In this document: one piece after another, positions 1-62,726 of the stretch
Numbering within the stretch: position 1 is the stretch's first letter
Layout of the letters: each line of letters begins with the position of its first letter
Assembly (NCBI GenBank): GCA_021823345.1
Contig: JAKAOF010000002.1
Span: forward strand, 52,792 to 116,017
Length of the DNA stretch: 63,226 nucleotides
Direction: 5' to 3'
From: Thermoplasmata archaeon
Lineage (GTDB): Archaea; Thermoplasmatota; Thermoplasmata; Lutacidiplasmatales; UBA184
Notes under the pieces: model-generated
Told to the model about the DNA's origin: nothing
Database searches by the model: none
What the model saw: the letters and a program-made list of their open reading frames with translations, nothing else
Position numbers and translations under genes: made by a program

Positions 1-193
1 GGGCGCCTTTCACCCTTCGCCGCTCCAACCGATGCAGCTCTCGGACCACGCTGGAGGGCACCATGATGCGGGCATCCTCCACCCAACGGCGTATCTCGGT
101 CTCCAAGGGGAATCGGTGCTCGATGCCGAGTATGAGGGCATTGGCGTCAAGGATCACCGGGGTACCGGTGGTCCGACGGGCCGATTCGGTCAT
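1..193 (-). CDS. PIN-domain protein, N-terminal fragment (truncated by window edge)
   Basis: The first 64 codons are visible and the frame runs off the left edge. The start ATG (193) overlaps the stop of the upstream surface-protein gene as ATGA, so the two are probably translated together. The fragment reads VILDANALILGIEHRF near residue 13 and VPSSVVRELHRLERR near residue 45. This is the beta1-Asp and helix-Glu pattern of PIN-domain RNases of the Fcf1/VapC9-like archaeal group, with the first acidic residue at Asp16. By family knowledge it would be a metal-dependent RNase. No partner antitoxin gene is visible, and the overlapping neighbour is a surface protein, so a toxin role is not supported. 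The remaining catalytic residues lie outside the window. Confidence 0.75.
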   Translation of the reverse strand, partial: MTESARRTTGTPVILDANALILGIEHRFPLETEIRRWVEDARIMVPSSVVRELHRLERRRVKGA

Positions 194-3100
194 GGCCCCA
201 TCCTCGTACCGTCCTCCTCTGCGTGCCCACAAGTGGGGCAGATCAAGCCCTCCAACGGAGTGTTGCACACCGGGCAATTGCTCGGCACGGATTCATGGGA
301 CCCTTCCGCGGTCGATGAAGCTTCCGAGGAGGGCAGTTGATCGAGATAGTCTTCGAGCGCTTTTCGGTCGTCGGAGTCCGACGGGGGCGGGTCATTCGGA
401 GGGGACCCCATGTCCGACGGAGGGATCTCCGCCTCTGGGACTGGGTCTTCCATGGCTTCGGAGGGCTCGGGCGCGGAGCTCGAGGGGTCGCCCCTCGACC
501 CCCGGTTCCGGCGGGTACCGATGACGAAGGTCCCGGCGAGCAGGGCGAGCGCTATGACCACCACCACGATGAGAGAGAACCAAGGGAATCCGCCGCCGGT
601 TCGGGCAAAGGAGAGTTGCACGACTTCGGGCTTTCCCAGTACCTTGACCGGCCCTGCCGAGGGAGTCACGGAGAAGCCCGAAGCGCTCGCCTCGAAGGAG
701 TAGGAACCGTTGACCATCTCGAACGAGAGGGAGGAGTTCGACCCCGAGACGGTCGCGTTCGCCAGGGTCACCGACCAACTGGTCCCGGCCGGGAGACCCG
801 ACTCTTCGAACATCACGGAATACGTGGGGGGTCGAGGGGTGGAGTTCTTCGCATAGGTGAGGTTGAGGTACGACGCTCTCCCTTGGATGGAGACGGTTCC
901 GCTGACGGGGTAGCTCGTGTAACCGGGGACGGTCGGGATGGAGTAAAAGTAAGTCCCGTTCGCCAACGTCACGGTAAGGTTCGTCCAGGTGCTGCGGGTA
1001 AGCCGACCGGAGATGTTGATCCCCCAGGTCGTGGAGGGAGATAGTCCGGCCTCATACACCGTCAGCGGGTACTGAGCGGGGTGGGTAAGGGAGAAGGTGA
1101 TCGCTACCGTCCGGTTGTTCCCACTCACGATAACGTTCCCGATCGCGGGGATCGCAAGATACCCGCGGGGTGGCGAAACGTTGTACGGGTAGGTTCCATT
1201 AAGCACCGCCATCGAGATCGAGCCACCGGAACTCTCGAGATGCGCACCGGCCAGGGTCACCGACCACACCAAAGAGGCCGGAAGCCCCGTCCCTTGAAAA
1301 TCCACCGCGTAGAGCCGGGGCAACTGGAATGGAGTGACGAGGGAGACCGACCCCGAACCATAATCGACCACATAGAGGAATCCTGAACTCGGAGAGTAGG
1401 CGAGACCGAGCGGTTCGCTCCCGACCGAGATGTTCCCCACGAACGCCCCCGAGCTGGCATTTAGGACCTGGATGAGGTCGGATTCGGGCTGAGCGACGTA
1501 GAGCGCCCCGGTCGAAGTGTCCGCGGCGAGTCGGGCCGGGTCCCCTGCTACGTGAAGCACCCGGTATGCGGTCATGGTCCCCGGCAGGAATTCGGAGATG
1601 CTGCCGGCTGCCGGGCTGCTCACGCAAAGCAGCGAGTCGAGCGGGTCGTAGGTGATGGAACTTGGCTCACCGGGAATGGGGATGGAGCCGAGAACGCTCC
1701 CGTTGGCACCGGAGAGCACGGAGATATTGTCCGAACCCTGGTTCGCCACGTAGACGCGACCGTCCGCCGGGTCGAATGCCATGCCAACGGGGTCGGTCCC
1801 TACGGGGACAGACCCTATCGGCTGGTGCGTGGCGAGGGCGATGACGGAAACGTTCCCGGCGAGGTATTGCGCCACGAACAGGAGATTGCTTTCGGGATCG
1901 ACCGCGAGGGCGTCCGGGCCACCGTTCCCGAGCGGCAGGCTCCCCTGAAGGGTACCGGAAGTGGAATTGATGACCGAGACGTTTCCGGAACCATTGTTGG
2001 CCACATACACCATGTTCCGGGCCGGATCTACGACCACGGCGCTCGGGTCGATCCCGGCCGGAAATGTGAAGGAGACCGGGGGGGGAAGGGAGGACACGGC
2101 GACCACTTCCCCCCGGGTGGACAAGGTGGAGTAGACCTCGCCCAAGGAGTCGTCCACGGCGAGCGCGAGGGGACCGGCCCCCACGGGAACTTCCTTGGAC
2201 GAACCCGGGATCAGGTTCAAAGCGCTTACCGAGTCGGACAGACTGTTCGCCGCCAACCAACGCCCCGTCAGGGGGTCGAGGGCGATCCCTTCGGGTTGTG
2301 TCCCGGTCGGGAGAACCGAGAGAATGCTTCGAGAGGAGACGTTCACGACGGCGACCGCGTTCGACCCGCTCTCGGAAATGACCGCCTGGGTCCCGTTCGA
2401 GGTGAGGGCAAGGTAGGAAGGATAGGTTCCCGGGGGGCCCAACGACAACGTGCCGATCGACGTACCGTTGGCGGTGAGGAACGAAGTGTTCCCCGAGATC
2501 TCATTGTCGATCAGGATCTCCCCGGTCTGAGGGATCACGGCGATCCCGATGGGGAAGTACCCTACCGAGACGTTGCGAACGACCGATTCGCCGGTCGCAT
2601 TGATCAGCGTCACGTCGTTTGAGCCCCCGTTCGTGACGACCATCATCTTCGACACCGGGTCATAGGTGACCTCCTCCGGGTCCTTGCCCGTGGATAGGGT
2701 GCGAACTACCAGTCCGAGCGTGCGGTTCAATATGGCCACTCCAGACCCATTCGACTCGGTGACAAAGACATTTCCCGTAAGCGGGTCCGTCACCGCGGAG
2801 GAGGGCCCCTTTCCGACGTTATAACGAGCCTCCGAAAGGAGCGTGGTGGCATTGAGCGCCGTTACCGTGTTGCCGGACTGATCCGCGACCAGGACGGTTC
2901 CCGTCGCATTGTCGATCGAGGCGGCCTCAGGGCCCACCCCGGCTCCGACCGAACTGTCCATCCGGTCCGAGGTCATATTGAACGTGACAAGGTTGTTCGA
3001 CTCGTAACCTGAGACCAGTATGCGGCCATCGAAGGGGTCGTAGACGGCCGCGTAGGGCTCAAGCAATTGCGGCAGGAGAACATTGCCCTTCCAAGACGTC

Positions 3101-3321
3101 CCGTTCAGCAGGGAAACCGTCGAGTTGACGGATCCCCCCTGTACGGACGGAACCTGAACTATCCGACCTCCCCCCTGCCAGTTACCGAGGCTGAGCACCT
3201 CCTTCAAGGCGGGCGGAGCCCGAACGGGTGACCACGACGGGCCGACCGCGAGGACCGCGATGAGTACCACCACGGCCAAGGGGGAACGCCAACGAGAACG
3301 GTTCGGGATTCCGCGTTGCAC
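190..3321 (-). CDS. Membrane-anchored YVTN/NHL-type beta-propeller surface protein with cytoplasmic zinc ribbon
   Basis: The protein has about 1,043 residues. The GTG at 3321 gives a basic N-terminus followed by a hydrophobic export segment (residues 14-28). A longer open frame to 3594 would overlap the upstream gene and lacks this logic. Residues ~50-690 are tandem propeller repeats of the type 'VYVANQGSDNISVL...DPVGMAFDP'. Three 'Y.V.F.E.GLP..T.WSV' repeats follow at ~700-900. A membrane helix lies at ~914-935. The ~105-residue tail is acidic and Pro/Ser rich, with ALEDYLDQL at ~988 and a CPVC...CPTC zinc ribbon at ~1016-1031. NxS/T sequons are dense outside the membrane. The family points to an extracellular adhesion or scaffold role; the ligand is unknown. 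The tail resembles that of the protein at 51.0-54.7 kb. Confidence 0.8.
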   Translation of the reverse strand: MQRGIPNRSRWRSPLAVVVLIAVLAVGPSWSPVRAPPALKEVLSLGNWQGGGRIVQVPSVQGGSVNSTVSLLNGTSWKGNVLLPQLLEPYAAVYDPFDGRILVSGYESNNLVTFNMTSDRMDSSVGAGVGPEAASIDNATGTVLVADQSGNTVTALNATTLLSEARYNVGKGPSSAVTDPLTGNVFVTESNGSGVAILNRTLGLVVRTLSTGKDPEEVTYDPVSKMMVVTNGGSNDVTLINATGESVVRNVSVGYFPIGIAVIPQTGEILIDNEISGNTSFLTANGTSIGTLSLGPPGTYPSYLALTSNGTQAVISESGSNAVAVVNVSSRSILSVLPTGTQPEGIALDPLTGRWLAANSLSDSVSALNLIPGSSKEVPVGAGPLALAVDDSLGEVYSTLSTRGEVVAVSSLPPPVSFTFPAGIDPSAVVVDPARNMVYVANNGSGNVSVINSTSGTLQGSLPLGNGGPDALAVDPESNLLFVAQYLAGNVSVIALATHQPIGSVPVGTDPVGMAFDPADGRVYVANQGSDNISVLSGANGSVLGSIPIPGEPSSITYDPLDSLLCVSSPAAGSISEFLPGTMTAYRVLHVAGDPARLAADTSTGALYVAQPESDLIQVLNASSGAFVGNISVGSEPLGLAYSPSSGFLYVVDYGSGSVSLVTPFQLPRLYAVDFQGTGLPASLVWSVTLAGAHLESSGGSISMAVLNGTYPYNVSPPRGYLAIPAIGNVIVSGNNRTVAITFSLTHPAQYPLTVYEAGLSPSTTWGINISGRLTRSTWTNLTVTLANGTYFYSIPTVPGYTSYPVSGTVSIQGRASYLNLTYAKNSTPRPPTYSVMFEESGLPAGTSWSVTLANATVSGSNSSLSFEMVNGSYSFEASASGFSVTPSAGPVKVLGKPEVVQLSFARTGGGFPWFSLIVVVVIALALLAGTFVIGTRRNRGSRGDPSSSAPEPSEAMEDPVPEAEIPPSDMGSPPNDPPPSDSDDRKALEDYLDQLPSSEASSTAEGSHESVPSNCPVCNTPLEGLICPTCGHAEEDGTRMGP

Positions 3322-3393
3322 GCTGACGCTAGTCAGGCGGAGTTCATCTTTCTTTCTCCTCGGGCCCCTTCCCAAAGACTCGGATAGGAAGGG

Positions 3394-3416
3394 GGGGGAG
3401 GCGGTCCGCCTCCCCC
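3394..3416 (-). terminator. GC-rich hairpin between two surface-protein genes
   Basis: This is a perfect inverted repeat with an 11-base stem (GGGGGAGGCGG pairing with CCGCCTCCCCC) around a single central base, so a realistic hairpin has about 10 pairs and a 3-base loop. It starts about 9 bases after the stop of the gene at 3425-5359 and lies before the start of the next minus-strand gene. No long T-run follows, so intrinsic termination is uncertain; it may instead protect a 3' end or separate the two genes. Confidence 0.4.
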
Positions 3417-3424
3417 ATGCCAGT

Positions 3425-5359
3425 CTACTGTCCAGGCGGAGGGGCTCCCTGAGCTGGTCCGTACGAGGAACTGACGGGGTAGTTTCCGGGGGGTGGGGCC
3501 CCGGCGTTCGTCGGGGTCTTAGGCTTCTTGGCCTTGAAGTAGTACGCCAAGCCCCCGCCCACGGCGGCCACGACCACCACACCAACGACGACATAGATCA
3601 GCAAGTTGTTGTTGCCGTTGTTAGAGTTGTTCCCGTTGCCGTTCGAGGTCCCCGAGGTCACAGTGAGGATGGTGGCCCTGTTCACCGAGTGCTTGTTCGC
3701 GTCGGTGACGGTCACTGTCACGGTGTAATTGCCCGCGGTCGAGGGGGTGCACTGCAGGGAACTCGTGTTCGAGCTCGTGCAACCAGCAGGCAAGGTGGCG
3801 TAGCTGTACGTGTAGGGGGACTTCCCCCCGCTCACCGAGACCGTGAAGGTGGTCGAGCTCCCCGCGGCGACACTGGAGGGAGAGGCCGAGAAGGCGGTAA
3901 TCTGAGGGTATCCGGCCGGAGCGGTCACCGTGAAGACGGCGGGGGCCGAGCTTGCGGCCGTCTTTCCGGTCGAGTCCGTAACGGTCACCGACACCGAATA
4001 GGTACCGGGCGTGGTGGTCACGCAACTGATGGTCGCTAGATTCTGGGACAGGCAGCTCGATGGGAGTCCCGTGTAGGCGAAGGAGTAGGGAGCGGTGCCG
4101 CCCGTGACCCCTACCGCGATGGTCACGGCTGATCCCGGAGCAACACTCGACGGGGTGGCGGTGAAGGAATTGATCACCGGTCCGCCCGCGGAGCCTCCGG
4201 CGGGATTGATGACCGACACGGTTCCCGCTGCGTTGTTGTTGGCCGAGTTGACCACGTAGATGTCGCCGTTGGTGCTGTCATACTCGATCGCATCCGGCTC
4301 CACGCCGACGGCGATGGTCCCGAGAATCGTGTTCGTTGAACCATCGATGACCGTCACCGAGTTGGTATTGTAATCCGTCGTGTAGAGGTAGCCGTTGGCG
4401 GGATCGAAGACGACCCCGTCGGCCCCCGCCTGGGTAGAGTAGCTGACGTTGGTCACGAGCTTGTTGGTCGACCCGCTGATCACATTGGTGACGTTCCCGC
4501 CGGCCACGTAGATGTCGCCGTTGGTGGAATCGTACGCACATCCCCCCTCAACACCCTGTGGGCTCGAGAGGTTGGTGATGAACGAATAGGTGGTGGCACT
4601 GTCAATGGCGATATCCGTAGCCACGCTCGGACCATAGGCGCTCTGATCGACCACGAAAAGTTCGCCATTGGCGGTGTCGATGCATTCGTGCATCGGAGTT
4701 TCCAAGCCGGCTGAATTCGCTGGCTCGGAGAAGAACTGTGTTCCGAGGGTGTTCGACGCGGTGTTGATCGTGTACATGCTCAGGTTGTCGTAGCTGACCA
4801 TGAACAAGGTACCGGTCGTCGAGTCCAAGGCCAGGCTGCCGCTGCTTCCCGCGGAGCCCGAAAGGTTGACCGAGTTCGGGCCCACCGCGTTGGTCGCCGC
4901 GTTCACTACGAAGACTCTGAAGGCATCCTGGTCGACGACGTAGAGGTTGCCATTTGCACTATCGTAGGCCAGCGAGTCGGGAGCTGCACCACCGGAAGTG
5001 GTGAACACTGGAAGTGTAATCCAGCTCGACACGGTGTTGGAGGCCGGGTTGATGACGGTCACATTGCCCGGACGAGCCGTCGTAGCGGCCTCCCCGTTCG
5101 CAACGAAAATTTTGTTGTCGGCCTTGTCAAAGGTAACCCACCCCGGTCCCCAGCCCACCGGGATTGTGGCGACCACGGAACCGATCCCGTGGGGAGCCAA
5201 GGAAGCCGAGGTCACGGAACTTCCGATCGCCAAGTTGGCTTCCGAGGCCCTGGGCTGGACCATCGCCGCTCCGACCAGTCCCATGGACATAGCCAGCGTC
5301 AACACAATTGCGATCGTCCCGAGGGCAAGCTTTTGGCGGCTCATTTGCCATTCGACCAT
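3425..5359 (-). CDS. Secreted YVTN beta-propeller protein with two Ig-like domains and C-terminal anchor
   Basis: The protein has about 644 residues from the ATG at 5359, which is preceded by AGAGG at good spacing. A GTG at 5374 in the same frame is possible. An N-terminal signal segment (residues ~10-32) is followed by propeller repeats at ~40-385 such as 'IYVVNSANNNAAGTVSVI'. Two Ig-like domains follow (~390-560), both of the form 'PYSFAYTGLPSSC...TISC..TTPGTYSVSVTVTD'. A Gly/Asn-rich linker, a membrane helix (LLIYVVVGVVVVAAVGGG) and a short Lys- then Pro-rich tail complete it. It shows the same architecture as the protein at 51.0-54.7 kb but lacks that protein's zinc ribbons. It is predicted to face the outside of the cell, and its ligand is unknown. 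Confidence 0.8.
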   Translation of the reverse strand: MVEWQMSRQKLALGTIAIVLTLAMSMGLVGAAMVQPRASEANLAIGSSVTSASLAPHGIGSVVATIPVGWGPGWVTFDKADNKIFVANGEAATTARPGNVTVINPASNTVSSWITLPVFTTSGGAAPDSLAYDSANGNLYVVDQDAFRVFVVNAATNAVGPNSVNLSGSAGSSGSLALDSTTGTLFMVSYDNLSMYTINTASNTLGTQFFSEPANSAGLETPMHECIDTANGELFVVDQSAYGPSVATDIAIDSATTYSFITNLSSPQGVEGGCAYDSTNGDIYVAGGNVTNVISGSTNKLVTNVSYSTQAGADGVVFDPANGYLYTTDYNTNSVTVIDGSTNTILGTIAVGVEPDAIEYDSTNGDIYVVNSANNNAAGTVSVINPAGGSAGGPVINSFTATPSSVAPGSAVTIAVGVTGGTAPYSFAYTGLPSSCLSQNLATISCVTTTPGTYSVSVTVTDSTGKTAASSAPAVFTVTAPAGYPQITAFSASPSSVAAGSSTTFTVSVSGGKSPYTYSYATLPAGCTSSNTSSLQCTPSTAGNYTVTVTVTDANKHSVNRATILTVTSGTSNGNGNNSNNGNNNLLIYVVVGVVVVAAVGGGLAYYFKAKKPKTPTNAGAPPPGNYPVSSSYGPAQGAPPPGQ

Positions 5360-43398: not shown

Positions 43399-43779
43399 TT
43401 AGACGAGCGGGGTGCTGTACTGCAGGAGGATGCTCACCGTCACCCCGGAGCCCGCCTGCGTCAAGCAGGCGACGCTGTAGGCTCCGGAGTGGGCCGGGAA
43501 AGTGCCGCTGCCCGAGGTGACGGTCACTTCGGCGGGGCCGTTCTCCCAGGCGAGGTTCTGCCCCTGGCCCACGACCAACCACACCGAGGCGCTCGAGTTC
43601 CACTGGATGCTCACGGTGGCCGTGGGCAAGGTGAAGTTCAGGTACTGGATGATCTGGCCGGGCTGTTCGCACGTGATCACGTACGTTTGTGCGTGGGATT
43701 CGATGGGCACGAACAGGAGAACAATGACCAACATGGAAATCACGACCACGACGCCGATGGCGATCCAGGAGCCCTTCAC
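43399..43779 (-). CDS. Small membrane-anchored extracellular protein
   Basis: The protein has 126 residues. An N-terminal signal anchor (GVVVVISMLVIVLLFVPI) precedes a ~95-residue beta-sandwich-like ectodomain with two cysteines (ITCEQPG, VACLTQ) that could form a disulphide. Its start overlaps the stop of the large propeller protein upstream (ATGA), suggesting it is an accessory of that protein. No family was recognised. Confidence 0.65.
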   Translation of the reverse strand: MKGSWIAIGVVVVISMLVIVLLFVPIESHAQTYVITCEQPGQIIQYLNFTLPTATVSIQWNSSASVWLVVGQGQNLAWENGPAEVTVTSGSGTFPAHSGAYSVACLTQAGSGVTVSILLQYSTPLV

Positions 43780-46700
43780 GCGGCCTCCCCCGGTGGTGCC
43801 TCGTCGGTCGCCCGCTTCCGCTTTCTATAGAGCACGAACCCGACCCCCGCCAACACCACGATCACGACCACCCCGAGCACCAGATATAGGGCCCATGGGG
43901 GCAGGTTACTTGAGCTATTGTTCGCCGCCTGCGAGTGGAAGGTGACGATCAGGCGTCCCACAGCGCCATTAATGGTGATGGTGAAGTTCGCCGGCGTGAC
44001 CGAGTACCCTGACAGATTCCTCACTCCGCCCGAATACGTTCCATTCGGCAGGGTGAAGTTGACCTCGGTCAGGGCGGAGTGGTTCTGCGACCCGTTCAGG
44101 GTCACGTACCACGTCGTGCCGGCCGAAAGTCCCACCTCGGAAATGGAGACCAGATAGACCGAGCGATAGTGCGCCGTCTCGTTGATGGGACCATGCATAA
44201 TGGTCGAGTAGGTTGGCAGGGGCCCGCTGTAGCTACCCGATCCCGACCCGACCCACCCCAAGAACTCGTGACCTGAAAGCACCTGGGCAGAAAGGTCAAC
44301 CTTTGTCCCGTTGGCATACCAGCCGCTCCCCGGGCTCACGCTCTGATTGGGAGCCCCGACCACCAGCATTGAAAGCTCGAAGTAGGTCCGGAACCCGACC
44401 GAGACGTTCTGGGACCCATTCGAGACGCTAAGATTCCCCGAGGCCGGGCTCGGTACGTACCGAGTTCCCGGCTGGCTCGCGGTGGAGGCGGTGATCGAGT
44501 ACGAATAGTTGCCCCGAGGCTCTTGGAAGAGGACCGTGGCCGAGAAGGACTGCTGGAGCACGCCGTTCAGGGTGACCGACCAGGGAATCCCCGAGGGAAG
44601 GCCCGACTCGAGGAACGTCAGTGAGTAGGTCACCGCACTGAACGAGACGTTCACCGTTGCCGGGTGACCCCGGACGGTCACGGCACCGGCGGCCGGGCTT
44701 CCGGCGTAGCCCAGCACCGTGGGCACGGAATAGCGGTACGTCCCGTTGGGCATCTGGAAGGACACCTTGCTCGAATTGCTCGACTGGGCCGACCCCGCCA
44801 AGGAGACCGTCCATGGAAGGGAAGCCGGCAGACCGCTCTCTTGGAACGTGACCAGGAACCGGGGGGGAGGTAGCGGGTGGAGAATCGTGATCGTGCCAGA
44901 AAGGGTGTTGGTCACATAGACCGAGCCCGAGGCCGGGTCCACGGCCACCTGGGAAGGGTTGACCCCGGCGGGGATCGTAGAGACCACTTGCCCGCTCAAG
45001 GGATCGATAACGGAGATGTTGTTGGACCCGGAATTCGCAACGTAGAGGTACCCGTTGAGCCCGTCGACGGCGATCCCCTCGGGGGAGGAGCCGACCGATA
45101 TGGAACCGACCACCGAGTCCGTGGTGCCGTTGATGACGCTTACATTGTTGGAACCGGAGTTCGTCACGTACACCAACCCATTGTCGGGGTCGATGGCCAC
45201 GCCCGAAGGGGTGCCGCCCACGGGGATGCCCGCGTGGAACGTGTTGGAGCCCCCGTCGATGACCGTCGTCTCGTTTGAGTTCCAGTTCGTGATGTAGACG
45301 AGGTCCGTCACGTTGTCGACGGCGATGGAGCTTGGGCCGAACGACGTACTGATCGACCGCACGGTCGTCTGGGTGACGGGATTGATCACCGTCAAGTTAT
45401 TCGACCCGGCATTGGCCACGTAGAGGAGGCCGTTCGCGGAATCATACGCGACGCTGCGCGGGCCAAGCCCCACGGGGATCGTGGAATTGATCTTCCCGGT
45501 GGTCCCGTTCACCTCGAGCAGGAAGTTTCCGCTGGTCAAGACCCCGTAGTGGGTCACAAAGAGATCTCCCAGACGTGGAACGTAGGTGAGCCCATAGGGT
45601 TGGGCCCCGATGGGGTCCCATCCCATGGAAAAATTGGTGACCACCTGCGAGGTACTCCGGTTGATCTCGGCGATGGCGTTTGCATCGGTTTCGGAGGCAA
45701 AGATCATCCCGGTCTGCGGGTTCTCCGAGAGACCATAGGGTTGGACCCCGAGGGGGATGGACCGGGAGGCCCGGTTCTGTTGGTCGGCGATGACGCTCAC
45801 GTTATCCGAGGCATAGTTGGTCACGAAGATGGCGTGGTCGACCGGGTCGTAGGCCGCGTCCTGCGGGAACTGACCCACCGTGATCGTGCGCGTGATCGAA
45901 TTGGTCGACCCGTTGATCACCGTGACGTTGACCAGGCCCACATTGGTGACATAGATGTCGTGATTCCCCGAATCGTAGACCACGCCCGTCGGGTAGGCAT
46001 TCAGGCCGTAGCCGATGACCAGGGTATCCATCAACCGGTTCGAGGTTGCGTTGATGATGCTCACGGTGTTGTTGTAGTTGTCCGTCACGTAGAGCTCTCG
46101 GTTGGATGAGTCGTACGCGATATCGTAAGGGTAGGTGGCCATTCCGATGTGCACGGACGTGATGTTGGCTCCCGATGCCGCATCGACCACGGAGATATTG
46201 CCCAGATAGAGTTCGGAGAGGTAGAGGTTGCCGTTGTCGGGATCGTAGGCAATCGCGTACGGGTCCTGAAACCCGGAGATCGAGCGAACCACAACGTTGG
46301 TGGAACCATTGATCTCGGTGATGTTACCCGAGTACCAATTCGTCACGAAGAGATGCCCATTGGCCGTGTCGAGCGCGATTCCGCTCGGGAGGTTCCCCAC
46401 GGGGATCGTCATCACCACTCGAGCCATGGTCCCGTTGATGACCCCCAATTCCGAGAGGGAGGGAAGGGCGACATAGACGAGCGAGTTCAAGGGATCGCTG
46501 CAAATAACGCCCGGAACTCCTGGAAGTGCGATCGTACCCACCACCCGACCCGTCGACGCGTCGATCGAGGTCACGAAGTCATTCCCGCCGTCGGCCACGT
46601 ACACGAGTCCGTCCGAAGAGTCGTAGGCAACCTGGTTCGGCTTGATGCCATTCTCAGGCAAGTAATTCCCTTGCACCAGCGTGTTGTTGAGGAGGTCGAG

Positions 46701-46949
46701 CGTCTCCTCCGGGGTCGACACCCCGCTCGATCTGAAGTGAGGCGAAGCAGGCGAGGGAGACACCGCTGGGGACGATGCACGATGCCCCAGGCCATTCTCC
46801 TCCAAGTTGACAGGAGCAACGTTCCCAACATGCCTGTCGGCAGGGAACAGCGTAGGATAGAGCGCAGAAGTGCCGAGGAGCACCAACAAAGTGCCCACGA
46901 TGGCGACCGAGTCCCAGCGCTTGACTTTTCGATACACTTTTGAGTCCAC
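43776..46949 (-). CDS. YVTN beta-propeller surface protein with GLPxGT and InlB-like repeats
   Basis: The protein has 1,057 residues. A signal anchor (~14-32) is followed by about fourteen propeller repeats (~80-690) such as 'GLVYVTNSGSNNVSVINGTTDSVVGSI'. Three 'GLPxGxPWSV' repeats follow (~700-860 and ~940). One segment, 'WYANGTKVDLSAQVLSGHEF' with 'TAHY' at its end, resembles InlB B-type/bacterial repeat domains. The helix LYLVLGVVVIVVLAGVGFVLY and a short basic/acidic tail end the chain. There are many NxS/T sequons. It is a predicted S-layer-associated or adhesive protein, with no zinc-ribbon tail. Confidence 0.82.
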   Translation of the reverse strand: MDSKVYRKVKRWDSVAIVGTLLVLLGTSALYPTLFPADRHVGNVAPVNLEENGLGHRASSPAVSPSPASPHFRSSGVSTPEETLDLLNNTLVQGNYLPENGIKPNQVAYDSSDGLVYVADGGNDFVTSIDASTGRVVGTIALPGVPGVICSDPLNSLVYVALPSLSELGVINGTMARVVMTIPVGNLPSGIALDTANGHLFVTNWYSGNITEINGSTNVVVRSISGFQDPYAIAYDPDNGNLYLSELYLGNISVVDAASGANITSVHIGMATYPYDIAYDSSNRELYVTDNYNNTVSIINATSNRLMDTLVIGYGLNAYPTGVVYDSGNHDIYVTNVGLVNVTVINGSTNSITRTITVGQFPQDAAYDPVDHAIFVTNYASDNVSVIADQQNRASRSIPLGVQPYGLSENPQTGMIFASETDANAIAEINRSTSQVVTNFSMGWDPIGAQPYGLTYVPRLGDLFVTHYGVLTSGNFLLEVNGTTGKINSTIPVGLGPRSVAYDSANGLLYVANAGSNNLTVINPVTQTTVRSISTSFGPSSIAVDNVTDLVYITNWNSNETTVIDGGSNTFHAGIPVGGTPSGVAIDPDNGLVYVTNSGSNNVSVINGTTDSVVGSISVGSSPEGIAVDGLNGYLYVANSGSNNISVIDPLSGQVVSTIPAGVNPSQVAVDPASGSVYVTNTLSGTITILHPLPPPRFLVTFQESGLPASLPWTVSLAGSAQSSNSSKVSFQMPNGTYRYSVPTVLGYAGSPAAGAVTVRGHPATVNVSFSAVTYSLTFLESGLPSGIPWSVTLNGVLQQSFSATVLFQEPRGNYSYSITASTASQPGTRYVPSPASGNLSVSNGSQNVSVGFRTYFELSMLVVGAPNQSVSPGSGWYANGTKVDLSAQVLSGHEFLGWVGSGSGSYSGPLPTYSTIMHGPINETAHYRSVYLVSISEVGLSAGTTWYVTLNGSQNHSALTEVNFTLPNGTYSGGVRNLSGYSVTPANFTITINGAVGRLIVTFHSQAANNSSSNLPPWALYLVLGVVVIVVLAGVGFVLYRKRKRATDEAPPGEAA

Positions 46950-51001: not shown

Positions 51002-54000
51002 ATGCGGGAACGAATCTTCGGCTCCCGGCATGCCGGTGGGGTAACGAGCAGGGCAACCGGCATGCACGGGCGATGGGTGCCCACAGCATCCTTGCTGTTC
51101 GTTCTGCTGAGCCTTACGCTCCTCCCCTCTGCTTCGGCGGGGGTGTCCGTGTCCGGCCACGGACCGAACGCTACCCACCCTGGCGGGTCGTCGCCCGGGG
51201 TCCGAAACCCGAACCTCACATGTGCCGGTGCCACCACCGACAGCAGTTACGACCCCGGGTGTCCGGTCTCCACACCTTCCACCTCGGCGCACCCCGCCGA
51301 GTCCGGCGCCGTGGTCGCCACGATTCCGGTCGGTTGCGGCCCCTATGGGGACACCTACGATAGCGGGAAACAGGAAATCTTCGTGGTGAACTCTTGCGGG
51401 AGTTCTGTCACGGTCATTTCTGCGGTCACGGAATCGGTGGTTGCGACGATTGCGTTGCCCGCCGGCAGCAATCCCGAGGGCGACACCTACGATAGCCAGA
51501 ACGGTTACATCTATACTGCGAACACGGGCGGGGGAACGGTGTCCGTGATCTCGGACGCCACCAATACCGTGGTCAGGACCATCGCCGTACCGAACCCAGT
51601 GTATCCGTGGGGGATCGCCTACGACAGCCGCAACGGGTACGTCTATGCCGCCAATGACGGGGGAGGGGACGATGTGTGGGTGATCTCGGGCATCTCAGTG
51701 ATCAAGACCATCGGGGTTGGAAGTAGCCCGGACGGAGTTACTTACGATGGGGAGAACGGGAATGTCTACACTGCCAACAGCGGCAGTCAGACCCTGACCG
51801 TGATCTCGGGGGCCACCAACACGGTCATCGGTACCGTGACGGAATCTGGGAGCTGGTACCCCTATTGGGTAGCCTACGGGGCCAAGAGCGGCAACGTCTA
51901 TGTGGCGAGCTACGGGACCCGGGACATCTACGTGATCTCCGGTTACACGAACGCCTTGGTTGCGGCGATCCCCGTGCCCTCCACCAATATCGAGATGTCC
52001 TACGACAGCGGGAACAACGATGCCTACGCGACGCCGTGCGGAGGCAATCAGGTCTACGTGGTCAACGGATCGAGCAATACGTATCTTACGTCGATCACGG
52101 TCGGCAACAATCCATGCGCGGTGGTCTATGACACGGCGAATGGGAACGTCTATGTGACGGATGCCGGATCGAACACGGTCAGCGTGATCTCAACCTCGAA
52201 CCCTCAGGTCACCGTCCCCGCAGCGTCCAAGCCCAATGTGGACCTCAGCCAGAGCGTGACCTTCTCTACCACCTCGTTGGGGGGGGTGCCTCCTTACACA
52301 TACACCTGGTACGGGCTACCTCCGGGTTGCCCCTCGGTGAGTGCCACTTCCATCACCTGCACGCCGACCGGGGCCGGATCCTTCACCGTATCCGTGACCA
52401 TCAAGGACAGTACGGGCTACACCACCTCCAGTGGGATCCTTCCCTTCAACGTGTACACTGACCCTCAGGTGGCCGGTCCGATCGCTTCCCAAAAGTCGGT
52501 CGACGCCAACCAGACCTTGACCTTCAACGCCTCCGCCAAAGGGGGCACGGGCAACTACACTTCCTTCGTTTGGACCGAGTCCTCGACGAACCTCGGCTGC
52601 ACGCTGACCAGTGCTCAGTCGATCGTATGTACCCCCGTGAAGAACGGCACGTACACGACAAGCGTTGTCGTGACGGATTCGAACGGCTGCTCATCGGGAA
52701 CTCCGGGGGGGTGTACCGCCGCGCCGAACAGCTCCGCCGTGCTCGCCGTGTATGCCGATCCCACGGTCGGACCCCCCACGATATCTCCCGGGGTCGTGGA
52801 TGCCTACCAATGGGTGAACCTCACGAGCTCGACTCCCGTCGGGGGTTTGCCACCGTACAATTTCACATGGAACGGTCTTCCGTCGAATTGCGCAAGCTCC
52901 GGGACGCTCAAGGACGTCTGTGTCCCGCAAAGCGGTGGCACCTTCAACGTCAGTGTGACCGTGACGGATTCGAACGGCTACTCCATCACCAGTCCCCGAG
53001 TAAAACTTCTCGTGAACAACTCGCTTTCCTTGGTCCTTTCGGCGAGCGCACGCACCCTGGACATCGGTCAGAACGTCACGTTCACCGCGACGGGCTCGTA
53101 CGGTTCTCTTCCCTACACCTATACCTGGGCCTACGCCTCCGGCATGGGGTGCACTCCTTCGAAGAGCCCCACGCTCCGTTGTGCTCCCACTCAACAGGGG
53201 TACTCCACCATCGGAGTCACGCTGACGGATGCCACGGGAAAGAACGTTTCCAACATCCTGGTCGAAACGGTCAACACTCACCCGACCATCACCCTCCAAG
53301 GGGTGAACTCGACCGACCTCAAACAAACCCTCAAGTTCACCACGGTCGAGTACGGGGGAACCTCGCCGGACACCTATCAGTGGAGCGCGGCACCTGCGCT
53401 CGGCTGCATCACCTCGGCCGCGGGGACCAAGGAGACCTGCACCCCCACGGCGATCGGGATCTACGCCCTATCGGTCACGATGCAGGACGCGGTGGGGGTT
53501 GTCGACACTTCTACGCTTTCCGTGACCGTCAACTCGGCGCCGAGTGTGATCCTCTCCGGTCCCACCGTGACGGACGTGAACCAGTCCTTCACGCTGACCA
53601 CGTTGGTCCACAATGGCACGGCGCCGTACAACTACATCTGGTCCACGGGCAAGGGATTCACGTGTGCCGCCTCCAACAGCACGAACATGTTCTGCCAGCC
53701 GATGAACCCTGGCCGGTACCAGGTCGGCGTGCGGCTCATCGATTCGGCGGGACTCTCCAGCGTCTCGAACCTCACGGTACAGGTCAACACCGACCCTCGA
53801 GCCATCTTGTTGGGAAAGAACGCCACGATGGAGCAGAGCACTTGGCTCCTGAATGCGAAGGTGGTCGGCGGGACAGGTCCCTACACTTACAGCTGGGCGT
53901 TCCCGGCGGCGATGGGATGTGCCTCCACCAACACGGCACTCCTCAACTGCACCCCGGCTCTGGCCGGGAACTATACCGTATCAGTATCCATCGTGGATGC

Positions 54001-54730
54001 CGTGGGAGTCTCCTCTACGACGTCCTTGCTGGTGCACGTGACGACGCCCCCGCTCCCGGTCTCCCAACCGTCGGAGCTCACCTGGTGGATCCCTTCGCTT
54101 ATCGCCATCCTCCTAGTGGTCGTCTTCTTCATACTGACCGCTCGAAGATTGCGAAAATCGCACTCGGAGAAGAAGGCGGAGGAGGAGGGGTCTGCGGCCC
54201 CGGTTGCTTCGGCACCCGCGGCCACGCCATCGGAACCGGTTTCGGACGCCCCCGCGGCGGTGATGGCCGAACCCGTGATCCCGGTGTCGGAGCCCGAACC
54301 CGTCTATGTGGCACCTGAGCCCGAGTATGTGGCCACCGAGCCGTATGCTCAGGGTCCGCAGGACTACGTTGGGGCCAGTGACATGGCCATGCCGGAAGAG
54401 CCCTACCTTCCCCCCGCGGCCGACCTCCCGGGGTGCCCGGAGTGCGGGTCGCCGGTCGTCCCCGGAGAGCAATGCCAAGTTTGCGGGAGCCCCACGGGCC
54501 TCCCACCGTTCCCCGAGGAGCCCCAGCCGACCAACGACGAGATGGCACTGCGAGATTACCTGGACAACTACCATGCCGGTCCCCCTGCCCCCAGCCCGGA
54601 GTCTACCTACTCCGCTACGGAGAACCAGGAGAAAGGGATCCAGACGTGTCCAAAGTGCGGGTTCCCGCTCCCGGGACCGGGGGCACCCTGCTCGATCTGC
54701 TCGCTCGAAGGACAAACCAAGAAGCCTTGA
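51002..54730 (+). CDS. YVTN beta-propeller/Ig-like surface protein with two cytoplasmic zinc ribbons
   Basis: The protein has 1,242 residues from the ATG at 51002; the ATG at 51062 would give a tidier signal peptide (MHGRWVPTASLLFVLLSL). Propeller repeats (~95-400, 'GNVYTANSGSQTLTVISGATN') are followed by seven Ig-like domains (~405-1015) of the pattern 'PPYTYTWYGLPPGC..ITCTPTGAGSFTVSVTI', each with a Cys pair. A membrane helix lies at ~1026-1047. The ~195-residue tail is acidic and Pro rich, then CPECG...CQVCG, ALRDYLDNY (~1181) and CPKCG...CSIC. The tail resembles that of the protein at 190-3321. The role is unknown: surface binding outside, protein contact inside. Confidence 0.8.
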   Translation: MRERIFGSRHAGGVTSRATGMHGRWVPTASLLFVLLSLTLLPSASAGVSVSGHGPNATHPGGSSPGVRNPNLTCAGATTDSSYDPGCPVSTPSTSAHPAESGAVVATIPVGCGPYGDTYDSGKQEIFVVNSCGSSVTVISAVTESVVATIALPAGSNPEGDTYDSQNGYIYTANTGGGTVSVISDATNTVVRTIAVPNPVYPWGIAYDSRNGYVYAANDGGGDDVWVISGISVIKTIGVGSSPDGVTYDGENGNVYTANSGSQTLTVISGATNTVIGTVTESGSWYPYWVAYGAKSGNVYVASYGTRDIYVISGYTNALVAAIPVPSTNIEMSYDSGNNDAYATPCGGNQVYVVNGSSNTYLTSITVGNNPCAVVYDTANGNVYVTDAGSNTVSVISTSNPQVTVPAASKPNVDLSQSVTFSTTSLGGVPPYTYTWYGLPPGCPSVSATSITCTPTGAGSFTVSVTIKDSTGYTTSSGILPFNVYTDPQVAGPIASQKSVDANQTLTFNASAKGGTGNYTSFVWTESSTNLGCTLTSAQSIVCTPVKNGTYTTSVVVTDSNGCSSGTPGGCTAAPNSSAVLAVYADPTVGPPTISPGVVDAYQWVNLTSSTPVGGLPPYNFTWNGLPSNCASSGTLKDVCVPQSGGTFNVSVTVTDSNGYSITSPRVKLLVNNSLSLVLSASARTLDIGQNVTFTATGSYGSLPYTYTWAYASGMGCTPSKSPTLRCAPTQQGYSTIGVTLTDATGKNVSNILVETVNTHPTITLQGVNSTDLKQTLKFTTVEYGGTSPDTYQWSAAPALGCITSAAGTKETCTPTAIGIYALSVTMQDAVGVVDTSTLSVTVNSAPSVILSGPTVTDVNQSFTLTTLVHNGTAPYNYIWSTGKGFTCAASNSTNMFCQPMNPGRYQVGVRLIDSAGLSSVSNLTVQVNTDPRAILLGKNATMEQSTWLLNAKVVGGTGPYTYSWAFPAAMGCASTNTALLNCTPALAGNYTVSVSIVDAVGVSSTTSLLVHVTTPPLPVSQPSELTWWIPSLIAILLVVVFFILTARRLRKSHSEKKAEEEGSAAPVASAPAATPSEPVSDAPAAVMAEPVIPVSEPEPVYVAPEPEYVATEPYAQGPQDYVGASDMAMPEEPYLPPAADLPGCPECGSPVVPGEQCQVCGSPTGLPPFPEEPQPTNDEMALRDYLDNYHAGPPAPSPESTYSATENQEKGIQTCPKCGFPLPGPGAPCSICSLEGQTKKP

Positions 54731-55081
54731 TTCGAACTGTCGGGGTTTGGGGTACATTTCGTACGGTGGACTCCCAGTCCGTGTGAAAACCGGGCCGAGA
54801 CCGGTCAAGGTCCAACGAAAGCGTCTGACCGCCCAGGAAGGGATTTCTACCCTCAGGGGGTGGGTTTCTCCGATAGCGTGGGCCCGACCCCATCATGCTC
54901 AGCGAGGTCGAGTACTGGCATCGAGAATGTGGTTCTAGGGCTTCCCCCCTTCGGAACGAAACCGCAAGGCGAAGGTAGGCGGAAACCAAGCCGAAAGACC
55001 CCTCGCAAAACGACCCGTCAAAAAATGGTTAAATAGGCAACCTAACATTGTATGACATGGGGTGACATTGTGGACAGGGCT
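54731..55081. other. Intergenic region of about 350 bases, with promoter and possible small structure
   Basis: No coding frame with support is seen. Near 54947-54978 CCTTCG and CGAAGG can pair around a 16-base loop, and GGC...GCC pairs follow, so a small structured RNA or 3' end of the upstream transcript is possible. A TATA-like GTTAAATA is at 55028-55035. The rest of the stretch shows nothing recognisable. Confidence 0.4.
55028..55035 (+). promoter_or_regulatory. TATA box of the VWA-like surface protein gene
   Basis: GTTAAATA predicts a transcription start near 55058. That lies downstream of the first ATG (55052) and favours the GTG at 55070 or the ATG at 55082 as the real start. Confidence 0.5.
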
Positions 55082-57442
55082 ATGCAACGCATCTTGGGCG
55101 TTGCGGTTCTCCTCATAGGTTCCCTCAGTGTCGTTGTATCGCTCTATCCGGCGGTCTCATCTCCGGTCAACGTCGTGGGCCTACCCCCCACGAACGCGAG
55201 TCCCGCCACGAACGTTCACCCAAGCGTAGCACAGACTTCTGCGACGGGGACCTCGCTGTCTTCACCGATGGGTAAATTCGTCCTACCTCAGTCGCTCTGC
55301 ACGAGTGGGCTCTCCGGCACGTGCCCGCATCTTGTTCCCTCCATCAGTGTGAGCCCGTCCGAGATTTGTGTCGAGGGCGGAACCGGGTGTGGGCCGATCC
55401 CCATTGACGCCCGGGTGACCCTGAACGTGACGGCCGAAGGTTCCGCACTCGGGTATCCTCCGAACGTCCAAGTGGTCTTTGTGATCGAGACCACCCCATA
55501 CGACGGCGGATACGATCCGGGGTCCCAAGACTATGGAGGCTCCTCCCCGGGAAGCTTCAACTCTGGAGGTCCGGACGACCCATGCCACGGACCCTGCATG
55601 GAATCGAACGCCGACCCGTTCTTCTTCAATAACGCTGGGACCATCGCCGCCAACATCGCGGCCAAGTACGGGGCGAGCGTGAACTCCTGCTCGTCCACCA
55701 GCACCCAGAACTCCGTGTGCTTTGCCTTGGTCGATTACTTCGCCACCTGCACGAACTCCCCCCCCGCCGCCTGTGCCGGGGGAGCCCACAACGATGCCGA
55801 CGGAAGTGAGTATAACGTGGACATCTCGAGCTTTGTACCGGCCTCGACCTTCGGGTCCATGGTCGGCAGCATGCTGAGCGCCGGTAGCCTGCTGGGGGGC
55901 CAGTTCAACAACCCGAACTGCTATGACGGCAATGGCGCTTGGCTCTACTGCGACTCGGACCTATCGGACAACTTCCTGAGTTCCTCGTCGATAACGGCCC
56001 TCTACGGGGCGCTCGGAGGGAGCGGGCTGGGTTGGAACAAGACCCAGGACCACGCCATCGTGCTCATGACCTCCACGATCCCCCGGTCCCCCTCCTTCCA
56101 GGTGCAGTACGCTCCCACCTACTCCGACTGGTGGAACCAGGGGCCCAGTTCCGTGTGCGAGCCATCCTACAACTATCCGGGCGGAGGTTCTTCGCCCGCG
56201 TGTGTCGGTTGGACCCTGCCCGGTCCAGGGGGAGTGGGTTCGATCGCCCAGATGGCCAAGAGCCAGAACGTCACGATCAACGTAATCGACATCCCGAACG
56301 GGATAACGGAGGTGAATTCGGGAGATTACAATCTCTCCACCCCGGTACTCGCCAGTGAGGCCACGAACGATACGCAAGAGATCCTCGCCGCCGGTTGCGA
56401 CATGGCGGTAGCGACCGGAGGGATGTGGGAGGGGCCTGCGGGCTACCATTGTTCCGCCGCACCCAAAGGCAGCGGAGGTCAGGGAAACCTGACCATCAGT
56501 TGTGTCTCCCCGGTTGTCGGATGTATCCCGCTAGGACAGAACAACAACCCGTCGGTCACGTGGATGTCGAATCCGGCCCTCGGCTGGGCACTTTCCAACA
56601 TCAATTTCCCCTTCATCAAGTCCTCGCTCGCCGCGCGGAACACGAACTCCGGGATCTTCGAGTTCATTCCGAACGGGAACTTCTCCATCGATTTCGCGCC
56701 CTATGGCGGCTCGATCGGTTCCCCGTCGTGGTCGGTCCAGTGCCACAGCTTGGTGAACCCGAACCCCCCGTGCGTGGCCACCCCGTTCGCTACCGGGCTG
56801 CCGAACGGGGGAGTGAGCTGGGCCTGGCCGTACAAGTTCATGTACCTCAATGACAGCTGGGTCGAGTCCTTCAATCTCGTGGCCCTGCCCACGTTCCCAC
56901 CGACGTTGTTGAACAGTCCGGTTCCCGTGGACGCATGTGTCAACGCCCCCAATCCCTGGACCGCCTGCGGAGGCTACGTGGCGGGAGGCATTGCGGACGT
57001 CAATTACACGAACTACCAGGGGACGGCCCGAGTCCAGCAATCGTTCCCCCCCGGGATGGTCATGGTGGTGGGAATCTTGATCGCTCCACCTCCACCACCG
57101 CCTCCACCCCCTCCGCCGCCGCCGCCCCCGCCTCCTCCGATGCCCATCATCAACCCCGTCGGGATCGTCACGGGCAATCCGCTCAACATACCGATATCTA
57201 GCCCGGCGATCCAATCCGTCACCGTCAGTGTGTCTCAACCCTCTCTGGCGGGACTCACGCTCACCACCCCACTCGGCACGAGCATCCCGGGCGCGGCGGG
57301 ATTCGTCGGGGTGTTCACCTCCCTCGGCGTCATGAACCGTCAGCGCCAGAAGAAGATGGTGGCCATGGGGATGGGCCAGCGGGCCAAGCGGCCCGCCACC
57401 CCGAAGGCCGGTGAGACGAACTCCATCGGCGCCATGGAATAG
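55082..57442 (+). CDS. Surface protein: split SWAWPY-type domain with inserted VWA-like domain and polyproline run
   Basis: The protein has 786 residues from the ATG at 55082, giving the signal MQRILGVAVLLIGSLSVVVS. Residues ~80-125 ('LVPSISVSPSEICVEGGTG') and ~530-660 (SWAWPYKFMYLNDSW...FPPGMV) match two parts of the N-terminal domain of the protein at 59955-62726. Between them lies a VWA-like fold: strand VQVVFVIETT (129-138), 'FALVDYFAT', DHAIVLMTST (~323-332) and 'AKSQNVTINVIDIPNG'. The MIDAS DxSxS is replaced by ETTPY, so metal binding is doubtful. Eighteen consecutive Pro (669-686) precede a weakly hydrophobic, basic C-terminus. Function unknown; probably cell-surface binding. Confidence 0.72.
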   Translation: MQRILGVAVLLIGSLSVVVSLYPAVSSPVNVVGLPPTNASPATNVHPSVAQTSATGTSLSSPMGKFVLPQSLCTSGLSGTCPHLVPSISVSPSEICVEGGTGCGPIPIDARVTLNVTAEGSALGYPPNVQVVFVIETTPYDGGYDPGSQDYGGSSPGSFNSGGPDDPCHGPCMESNADPFFFNNAGTIAANIAAKYGASVNSCSSTSTQNSVCFALVDYFATCTNSPPAACAGGAHNDADGSEYNVDISSFVPASTFGSMVGSMLSAGSLLGGQFNNPNCYDGNGAWLYCDSDLSDNFLSSSSITALYGALGGSGLGWNKTQDHAIVLMTSTIPRSPSFQVQYAPTYSDWWNQGPSSVCEPSYNYPGGGSSPACVGWTLPGPGGVGSIAQMAKSQNVTINVIDIPNGITEVNSGDYNLSTPVLASEATNDTQEILAAGCDMAVATGGMWEGPAGYHCSAAPKGSGGQGNLTISCVSPVVGCIPLGQNNNPSVTWMSNPALGWALSNINFPFIKSSLAARNTNSGIFEFIPNGNFSIDFAPYGGSIGSPSWSVQCHSLVNPNPPCVATPFATGLPNGGVSWAWPYKFMYLNDSWVESFNLVALPTFPPTLLNSPVPVDACVNAPNPWTACGGYVAGGIADVNYTNYQGTARVQQSFPPGMVMVVGILIAPPPPPPPPPPPPPPPPPPMPIINPVGIVTGNPLNIPISSPAIQSVTVSVSQPSLAGLTLTTPLGTSIPGAAGFVGVFTSLGVMNRQRQKKMVAMGMGQRAKRPATPKAGETNSIGAME

Positions 57443-59800: not shown

Positions 59801-59954
59801 AGAAGCCTGAAAGCTAGATTCCACCGACCAGAGCGCCCGTGATGAATGGACTAGCCGGGTACGAAGGAGGAAGGGCGTTCCCCGCCCCCCCTTCTCCGCG
59901 GAAACCTTGTCCGTAGCGCGCTCTTCTTTAGCACGGGTTGTATCACCTTGTAAG

Positions 59955-62726
59955 ATGCCAAGACGCAGGGCGATCTGGGCCAGCATCTCCCTTGCCTTGA
60001 TCCTAGCCGTCCCCGGCTCGGCGGGCACGACCTGGAACGAAACCCCGGGGGTCCATCATGTCGGGGAGCATGGGCGGACGAGTGGAGGGCTCACCGGGCT
60101 CCCGCGAAATCCGCTCGGGCCGAACGTTACTGGGATGGTCTGCAGCTGGGGCCATCCCCTCAACTCTTCCCCGCAGTTGGTACCGTCGATCTGTGTCTCT
60201 CCCCCCACGCTCTGCGAACCGGCGTACTGTGGGCCGAACATGACCTCAGTCGCCACCGTCACCCTGATCGTGAACGCCTCGGCGAACTCTTCGTACTCTG
60301 GAATCGTGGCATCGGGCGCCAACGAGGATACCTTCCAGTTTATCCCGACGATAGGCGTCGAAATGGGTCCTGGAGGGGTCACTTACTACTGCTTCCACAA
60401 CGGGAGCAATATCGAGGTGCTATGCCAGCAGGCTCCCCAATACCCCGTTGGTTATGGGATCGGCTGGGCATGGCCCTATGCAGTAATGTATCCCAATGAC
60501 ACGTGGAGTGTGACTTTCAACGTCTCCGTGTCATCCACGTTCCCAACCACTCAGCTTGGCAAGTGGATCCCCATCGACTGGTGTTCACTTAGTCAATACT
60601 CGACCTGTCAGGGGGGGCCTCCGACGTACTCTGAGGTGAGATACACCGACTTCGAGGGACATGGGGAGAACACCTCTTTCCCACCGGCACTAGTCCAAGT
60701 GGGTGCTTCGGTGCCCAGATATGCGGTCACGTTCTTAGAGAATGGGCTTCCCGCAGGGACGCCGTGGAGCCTATACTTCAACGAAGCCGCCATTGCAAAC
60801 TCTTCGACCACGACGGAGATCGTCGTAAATGCTACGGACGGAAATTATGTCTACACGGTCAGTCCCTCGAAGCGCTATGTTCCGAACCTGCCAGATGGCA
60901 ACGTATCCGTGCAGGGTTCGCCCGTGAAAGTGAGAGTGCAGTTTAGTTCAACGGCCAACGGCACGTACCCCGTCAGCTTCACCGAAGTGGGCCTACCTAA
61001 CGGCACGGCATGGCCCATTACGGTGGGCCGTGTGGCCATGACGTCCACGAATGCTTCCCACTTATTCTACCTCCCCAACGGGACGTTTTCTTGGGGGGTA
61101 GGAGGTGTTGTGGGATTCATTCCCTCGGTTGCGTGGGGCGAGGTATCCATCAATGGCAGCGCAGTTACTCAGTTGGTCTCGTTTCAGCCGATTCCTTCCA
61201 CCAACTCCACCGTGATCTTCCAGGAGCACGGCCTACCGACCGGTACGCAATGGTCGATCTGTCTCTGTCCACCCAGCAGTGGCCCCCCACCCCCGCCGGG
61301 AAACCCATTATCTCCACCCCCTCCCGATTACGGCTTTACGACAACTTCCGTCGCTTCGGAGATAGAGTTTTCCTTGGTAAACTACACCTACTATATCGAG
61401 GCAAGTACGTTCTCGCCCTTCTTTACTAGCTTGGTGTACAATCAAACGTTGCAGGTCACCGGTTCACCGGTGTTCGAGGTTGTCAACTTCGCCCAAATCT
61501 ACTCCGTTACCTGGACATCGCGCGGCCTGCCCGTTGGAACGTACTGGTCTGTCCAGTCAAGAGGGACGATACAAGGGTCGGATGCACCACAGAACGCGAC
61601 CGCCCCAGGTCTACTGAACGGAACGTTCGCTTACCAAGTGCTCCCGGCAGAAGGTTACCTCCCAGAGACCCCAAACGGAACCGTCTTGATCGAGGGAAAC
61701 AATGTTACCGTGATCGCTACATTCTACCGAACGGCCCCGGGGATGTACTCGGCAGTGTTTGAATATTTCGGACTGCCGTCAGACTCCGATTGGAGTATTG
61801 CGATCAGCTCTAGGCTCCTTGAGGGGTCCTTCACTTCAGGGTTGATAGCCACTAATCTCTCCAACGGAACCTACACCTACTACGTCGGCACGTCCGGGAT
61901 GGAATTCCCGGACGGTTACGTAGGGACGGTAACCATCTTCGGACAGAACGTATTCACCTATGTCGGCTTCTCGCCTGCGATGATAGGATCGTACTTGGTA
62001 AATTTCAACTTGACACGGTCCCAATGGGGGCATCTCTGGCAAATCTCCGTTGGGAACACCACGATCAGCTCGAGGCTCCCCTCCATCGGGATCTTTGAGC
62101 CGAACGGCACACTCCGCTACACTGCGACCTACCTAAACTCATCGCGACCCGCCCAAGAGAGTGGCGAATTCACTGTCAACGGAAACAATGTGACCGTCCC
62201 GCTCTTCCTCACCCCGCCCGCTCGGCTCTACGCCGTCAACATCTCTGAGATCGGGTTACCTACGGAAGACATCTGGTCCGTTCGCGAGAACGGGAGCCTG
62301 TTCTCATCCGACACCAGCTACGTGGACATCGATCTAGCCAATGGAAGCTACACATTCTCCGTGATCGCCCCGTCGGGGTACGACGCGTCCTGGACCAGTG
62401 ACTCGCTCAATCTGAACGGACAGGGAGAGCAGCTCCAGATTCACTTTGCGAAGTCCCCGGGCGCACCCAACTCCCTTCTCGGTCTCCCGACCCAAGTGGC
62501 GTACTTCCTTCTCGGCGTCGTCGTCACGCTCATCGCCGCGATGGGGATCCTCCTTCCCAAGGCCCGACGCGCCCGACGGAAGTCCCGTTCCCGCAAGAGC
62601 CCCCGCGGCCGGGACCCCCGTCCCAAGACCCCCCGAGCGGGACTCCCGGACCCGCCGAAGGGGCACACGTGGCAGATCGTCCGAGAACCGCTCACGGACA
62701 GCCCCGCAGAAGAGGAATTGGAATAG
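59955..62726 (+). CDS. Surface protein with SWAWPY-type N-terminal domain and seven GLPxGT repeats
   Basis: The protein has 923 residues. The ATG at 59955 lies ~26 bases after a weak TATA-like CTTTAG and opens a signal peptide (AIWASISLALILAV). Residues ~60-250 form a Cys-containing domain with 'LVPSICVSPPTLCEPAYCGP' and GWAWPYAVMYPNDTW, also found, split, in the protein at 55.1 kb. Seven repeats of 'YAVTFLENGLPAGTPWSLYF' type follow (~255-840); these are common in Thermoplasmata surface proteins. A membrane helix (VAYFLLGVVVTLIAAMGILLP) and a long Arg/Lys/Pro-rich cytoplasmic tail end the chain. Base composition is slightly more AT-rich than its neighbours. Confidence 0.75.
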   Translation: MPRRRAIWASISLALILAVPGSAGTTWNETPGVHHVGEHGRTSGGLTGLPRNPLGPNVTGMVCSWGHPLNSSPQLVPSICVSPPTLCEPAYCGPNMTSVATVTLIVNASANSSYSGIVASGANEDTFQFIPTIGVEMGPGGVTYYCFHNGSNIEVLCQQAPQYPVGYGIGWAWPYAVMYPNDTWSVTFNVSVSSTFPTTQLGKWIPIDWCSLSQYSTCQGGPPTYSEVRYTDFEGHGENTSFPPALVQVGASVPRYAVTFLENGLPAGTPWSLYFNEAAIANSSTTTEIVVNATDGNYVYTVSPSKRYVPNLPDGNVSVQGSPVKVRVQFSSTANGTYPVSFTEVGLPNGTAWPITVGRVAMTSTNASHLFYLPNGTFSWGVGGVVGFIPSVAWGEVSINGSAVTQLVSFQPIPSTNSTVIFQEHGLPTGTQWSICLCPPSSGPPPPPGNPLSPPPPDYGFTTTSVASEIEFSLVNYTYYIEASTFSPFFTSLVYNQTLQVTGSPVFEVVNFAQIYSVTWTSRGLPVGTYWSVQSRGTIQGSDAPQNATAPGLLNGTFAYQVLPAEGYLPETPNGTVLIEGNNVTVIATFYRTAPGMYSAVFEYFGLPSDSDWSIAISSRLLEGSFTSGLIATNLSNGTYTYYVGTSGMEFPDGYVGTVTIFGQNVFTYVGFSPAMIGSYLVNFNLTRSQWGHLWQISVGNTTISSRLPSIGIFEPNGTLRYTATYLNSSRPAQESGEFTVNGNNVTVPLFLTPPARLYAVNISEIGLPTEDIWSVRENGSLFSSDTSYVDIDLANGSYTFSVIAPSGYDASWTSDSLNLNGQGEQLQIHFAKSPGAPNSLLGLPTQVAYFLLGVVVTLIAAMGILLPKARRARRKSRSRKSPRGRDPRPKTPRAGLPDPPKGHTWQIVREPLTDSPAEEELE

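Follow-up and report, generated by a model that had tools for sequence, protein, structure and literature searches.

Two proteins, P0001 and P0002, are encoded in a 63,226-nucleotide stretch of genomic DNA from an uncultured Thermoplasmata archaeon (the window, meaning the whole of the stretch analysed). They share two blocks of sequence that lie much further apart in the first protein than in the second. This raises the questions of whether the blocks form a single domain that is interrupted in P0001, what the interrupting region is, and which of the two arrangements came first. The original prediction was of an unnamed domain, split in P0001 by a nested VWA-like domain that lacks the metal site (MIDAS) and that had been gained by one paralogue. 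The main features of the two genes, all on the plus strand, are listed here.

55052..57442, + strand: P0001, predicted split-form surface protein of 796 aa (motif positions checked), with a predicted signal peptide at residues about 1-36 (by eye) and a TATA-like promoter element, TTAAATA, ~26 bp upstream of an apparently leaderless ATG (by eye)
55325..55453, + strand: block 1, the N-terminal two strands of the P0001 Ig-like beta-sandwich (alignment; AlphaFold2 strands at residues 93-101 and 119-129)
55463..56497, + strand: nested VWA-like domain, P0001 residues 138-482, without a Pfam match (AlphaFold2, Foldseek, conservation)
56618..57079, + strand: block 2, the remainder of the P0001 Ig-like beta-sandwich (alignment, AlphaFold2, BLAST)
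57086..57439, + strand: proline-rich stretch and C-terminal module that other surface proteins in this genome also have (56% identical at C35, 52% at C40)
59907..62726, + strand: P0002, 939 aa from a TTG (alternative ATG at 59955), a form in which the VWA has been lost; an Ig-like domain, then GLPxGTxW-type repeats
60165..60716, + strand: uninterrupted Ig-like domain of P0002 (AlphaFold2)

All of the motifs quoted for the shared blocks were located in the two proteins. In P0001 these are LVPSI (residues 94-98) and CGP (113-115) in the first block and WAWPY (590-594) in the second, with VVFVIETT (141-148), FALVDYFAT (224-232), AIVLMTST (335-342), and VTINVIDI (407-414) between them; in P0002 they are LVPSI (91-95), CGP (108-110), and WAWPY (187-191). 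The likeness is beyond chance. Block 2 of P0001 matches that of P0002 with a BLASTP E-value of 4e-14 and has a score of 179, where 1000 shuffles reached at most 65; block 1 scores 64, where the shuffles reached at most 52. Two details needed correction. The predicted spacing of ~100 residues holds for P0002 (96 residues), but in P0001 the blocks are 496 residues apart and not ~400, a figure nearer the length of the insert; and the second block, described as ending in FPP after a W, reads FPT in P0002.

VWA heads nested within Ig-like domains occur in animal integrins and at some bacterial pilus tips. An AlphaFold2 model of P0001 residues 85-680, based on an alignment with 48 homologues, has a mean pLDDT of 82.6 and a pTM of 0.66. 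Between the blocks, its elements run in the order b1 (138-146), a1, b2 (220-229), b3 (255-262), a2, a3, b4 (333-340), a long insert (341-397), a4, b5 (407-413), and a5, and the four strands originally named as being in VWA order all fall on core strands. As modelled, the middle region is a Rossmann-type fold with the VWA order of strands and helices, and both model and alignment place it between the second and third strand of the Ig-like sandwich. The N-terminal domain of P0002 was modelled with the insert carried solely by other rows of the alignment, and here blocks 1 and 2 form a single continuous beta-sandwich (pLDDT 87.5, pTM 0.83). The two predictions, along with Foldseek comparisons, bear out an Ig-like domain split by a nested VWA-like one: the blocks are related parts of the same sandwich, and the middle region of P0001 is Rossmann-like and of VWA type. 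The highest-ranking PDB structures for P0001 are Mfa5 (E-value 6.6e-9), SpaC (1.1e-8), and PitA (5e-8), followed by integrin beta chains (about 1e-6 to 1e-4), with GBS104 and RrgA lower. Whole-chain TM-scores are low (0.2-0.4), so the likeness to adhesins and integrins is one of fold and plan and not of close kinship. P0002 matches integrin alpha-chain and RrgA Jo.In sandwiches. In a viral fold library two matches fell below an E-value of 0.001, with low TM-scores, and the named ones were mostly viral VWA proteins; a search of viral contigs found no relatives.

Sequence-level searches do not recover this fold. Pfam searches gave no match to PF00092 for P0001 or for 48 other homologues, and no sequence match to a VWA came from Pfam, NCBIfam, or the PDB. 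The split domain was rightly called unnamed, as Pfam and NCBIfam recognise no part of it. Comparison by hhalign with canonical VWAs of relatives gave probabilities of 1.3 and 2.5%, which are not significant, with both short matches in the right register.

The canonical MIDAS has the form DxSxS...T...D. The corresponding parts of P0001, and the insert close to them, are as follows.

55487..55519, + strand: altered MIDAS loop 1, ETTPYDGGYDP (E146, T148, Y150, D151; alignment of 73 homologues)
55952..56008, + strand: DSDLSDN...SSSSITALYG, an acidic loop and the MIDAS Thr position (S311, register by eye; alignment)
56054..56086, + strand: strand b4 and loop 3, AIVLMTSTIPR, with S341 at the place of the canonical VWA Asp (AlphaFold2, alignment)
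56072..56242, + strand: ARM2-like insert of 57 residues between b4 and a4 (P0001 341-397; AlphaFold2), with conserved C..EPSY..SP.C.GW, in the same position as ARM2 of Mfa5, RrgA, and GBS104 (PMC7835359)

As predicted, DxSxS is absent from P0001, which has ETTPY at that place. The description of the domain as MIDAS-less holds in that the canonical motif is gone, but the loops, although altered, are strongly conserved across the 73 homologues. Most members have E146, T148, Y/F150, S311 (register by eye), and S341 at the five positions where the canonical site has D, S, S, T, and D. The residue pair 146/341 is E/S in 63 of the 73 sequences, D/D in four (L060 among them), D/A in three, N/D in one, E/T in one, and cut in one. 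Furthermore, conserved acids adjoin the altered site (D151, D155, DSDxSDN, and DDGDG). No part of the family is better conserved than the nested VWA insert, for which the mean column conservation is 0.63 compared with 0.47-0.48 in the two blocks, with 59 columns reaching at least 90%. Against the orthologue in genome G002, dN/dS is ~0.05-0.09, with dS near saturation. When a VWA tree is built without the MIDAS columns, the D/D and N/D sequences come together in a single clade with 100/99 support that lies among the E/S sequences, and the coupled change at 146 and 341 therefore rests on one event; since canonical D/D replaces E/S in this clade, both states can be compared inside one family. A diverged branch (L151, L152, and L153, from G182, G275, and G238) has DVSQM, DVSEF, or DESPM as loop 1, nearer to DxSxS, without the loop-3 Asp; L151 also has PKD domains (Pfam).

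Different explanations can be proposed for such a protein. The one that we consider probable is that P0001 is an archaeal protein, secreted or displayed on the surface, whose VWA-like head, nested in an Ig-like sandwich, binds a ligand with its top face. Computation shows the two blocks in common, the nested position and VWA order of the middle region, its conservation, and P0002's loss of the head; surface display, ligand binding, and any metal at the altered site are inferred. The head would consist of the VWA-like domain, set into an Ig-like (hybrid/CnaA-like) beta-sandwich after its second strand and before its third, and would be held off the cell by the sandwich and the proline-rich stretch. 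Its top face, to which ETTxYDG, DSDxSDN, the SSITALYG Ser, and the ARM2-like insert contribute, would most likely bind a neighbouring cell, a glycan, or a mineral surface; as for pilus-tip adhesins and integrin beta chains, the sandwich would pass on or bear the load. An unsystematic look at the surroundings of P0001 noticed no pilus genes and no genomic link to any ligand. We suggest only tentatively that the metal-dependent adhesion site has been rebuilt, with E-T-T-x-Y/F-D-G as loop 1, Ser in place of both the Thr of loop 2 and the Asp of loop 3, and the conserved acidic DSDxSDN, and that it may still bind ligand, perhaps with another ion or none, as a new class of VWA/I-like head. The same substitutions (D to E at 146, Ser to Tyr/Phe at 150, and D to S at 341) would also suit a VWA fold that serves as a scaffold or protein-protein platform, with neither metal nor ligand site. 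This seems rather unlikely, as few parts are better conserved than the altered loops and one clade is acidic at both positions, which suggests a site in use. It is far less credible that the middle region belongs to a different Rossmann-like kind, such as an enzyme domain. Such an identity would fit the lack of a sequence-level VWA match, but the 50 best Foldseek matches in the PDB are VWA/I-domain proteins, some with identical nesting, VWA proteins are among the best viral fold matches, and both the ARM2 position and a C-terminal TGG motif fit a VWA domain.

The split form is the common one. P0001 matches six places in its own genome: P0001 itself, C8, C40, C3, an uninterrupted protein at C35, and P0002; C8, and C40 with C3, are split forms or pieces of them. 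The end of contig C3 and the start of contig C40 share exactly 127 bases within a split-form gene, most likely a single gene that the assembly cut. As assembly thus breaks at this repeated family, such MAGs give only rough copy counts. Matches to P0001 occur in 22 of 61 relative genomes, with G037, from outside the family, matching in the C-terminal tail only. The named relatives by sequence include Thermoplasmata MAGs. Across the class, 30 of 300 genomes carry the split form, all in one archaeal family, and a phylum sample gave matches in 11 of 390 genomes, again in that single family only. The proposed search for homologues without the insert found uninterrupted copies behind other N-terminal heads, and these are rarer. 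Their profile, run against 101 family genomes, matched ~15 proteins over its full length, 12 of which had gone into building it, and many more in block 2 without an adjoining block 1. The further uninterrupted copies from this run include G286:C103, G235:C61, and G013:C86. Uninterrupted Ig-like domains lie behind a Kelch propeller in L147-L150 (Pfam match for L147; others by eye) and behind a cysteine-rich head at G000:C35 (L080:951-2984). A PA14 identity for the C35-type head, suggested by eye only, has no support from Pfam or a PDB sequence search.

The prediction that the insert was gained in one paralogue is reversed for this pair. A tree built from just the sandwich nests P0002 and its orthologue in G002 among split forms, beside L029 and L013, and these four together have 96/96 support. 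In block 2, P0002 shares 69% identity with the C40 split paralogue in the same genome, compared with ~33% with P0001. Placing all uninterrupted copies in one group is rejected (p-AU 3e-17), as is grouping P0002 with the C35 type (p 6e-4). Because of this nested position, the block 2 identity, and the rejected joint grouping, P0002 is, as judged from sequence relationships, a descendant of a split form that lost its VWA domain. The opposite history, with an older Ig-like domain into which the VWA was inserted in the P0001 lineage and P0002 as the original state, draws on the uninterrupted copies in C35-type and Kelch-headed proteins, which can be grouped together without rejection (p 0.098); given these copies, a single insertion early on, at the family's base, is possible. 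For P0001 and P0002 themselves this history is refuted by the three observations above, and we regard it as improbable. The repeats that follow the Ig-like domain in P0002, of the type F.E.GLPxGTxWSV, extend over 60714-62486, and another two large proteins in the window (190-3594 and 43776-46949) have similar stretches.

The surroundings of P0001 are conserved as far as another genus. An NHL/PKD protein gene (51002-54730) lies upstream on the same strand, and this pairing recurs in G002 and in G016 and G021, which belong to another genus. G002 keeps the order PKD protein, NHL/PKD protein, P0001, two Kelch proteins, and P0002, with a C35-type gene at the other end. Since 321 bases with the TATA-like box precede the P0001 gene, it is probably transcribed from a promoter of its own. 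Two genomes of the genus have a canonical VWA gene next to a long split-form gene and divergent from it (G000:C8:27630-27827 and G004:C36:157491-157700). The C-terminal module consists of a long proline run, MPVxxPV..., a short hydrophobic stretch, and a basic RxKQRKMVAM-like end. Copies are found at G000:C35:5630-5983, at G000:C40:1467-1820, and in L026 (G037:C2), following differing heads that include the canonical VWA protein L026 of another family. The module may be a shared element for sorting or for attachment at the surface.

These proteins can be compared with several known systems. Among the canonical VWA proteins of the same archaea (G037:C2, L026), one shares the proline-rich C-terminal module of P0001, but such proteins differ from it in having an intact DxSxS, T, D motif and a Pfam match. 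In Mfa5 of Porphyromonas gingivalis, the VWA domain interrupts D2 after two strands, between B and C, and ARM2 lies between the fourth strand and fourth helix of the VWA (PMC7835359). P0001 resembles Mfa5, RrgA, GBS104, SpaC, and PitA in carrying a VWA in an Ig-like (CnaA-like) domain after two strands, in its long ARM2-type insert between b4 and a4, and in its further modules and probable surface display. It differs from these pilus-tip adhesins in its conserved sandwich cysteines, ~10% identity, and lack of a canonical MIDAS; as the complete MIDAS is missing, P0001 is not filed as a member of the split-Ig VWA adhesins. The sandwich of heavy chain HC1 of inter-alpha-inhibitor is likewise split by a VWA (PMC7170535), and P0001 is like HC1 and the integrin beta headpiece (I domain in hybrid domain) in nesting a VWA/I domain within a beta-sandwich. 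Unlike an integrin beta chain, it is archaeal, a single chain with an altered metal site, and no partner alpha chain was identified. The family offers natural experiments, with related proteins that have the head, that lack it (P0002), or that have canonical or altered acids at the site. It is a new archaeal family with a known nesting plan and an altered metal site, and thus extends the split-Ig VWA plan to archaeal proteins that are unseen by Pfam and NCBIfam and often present in several copies per genome.
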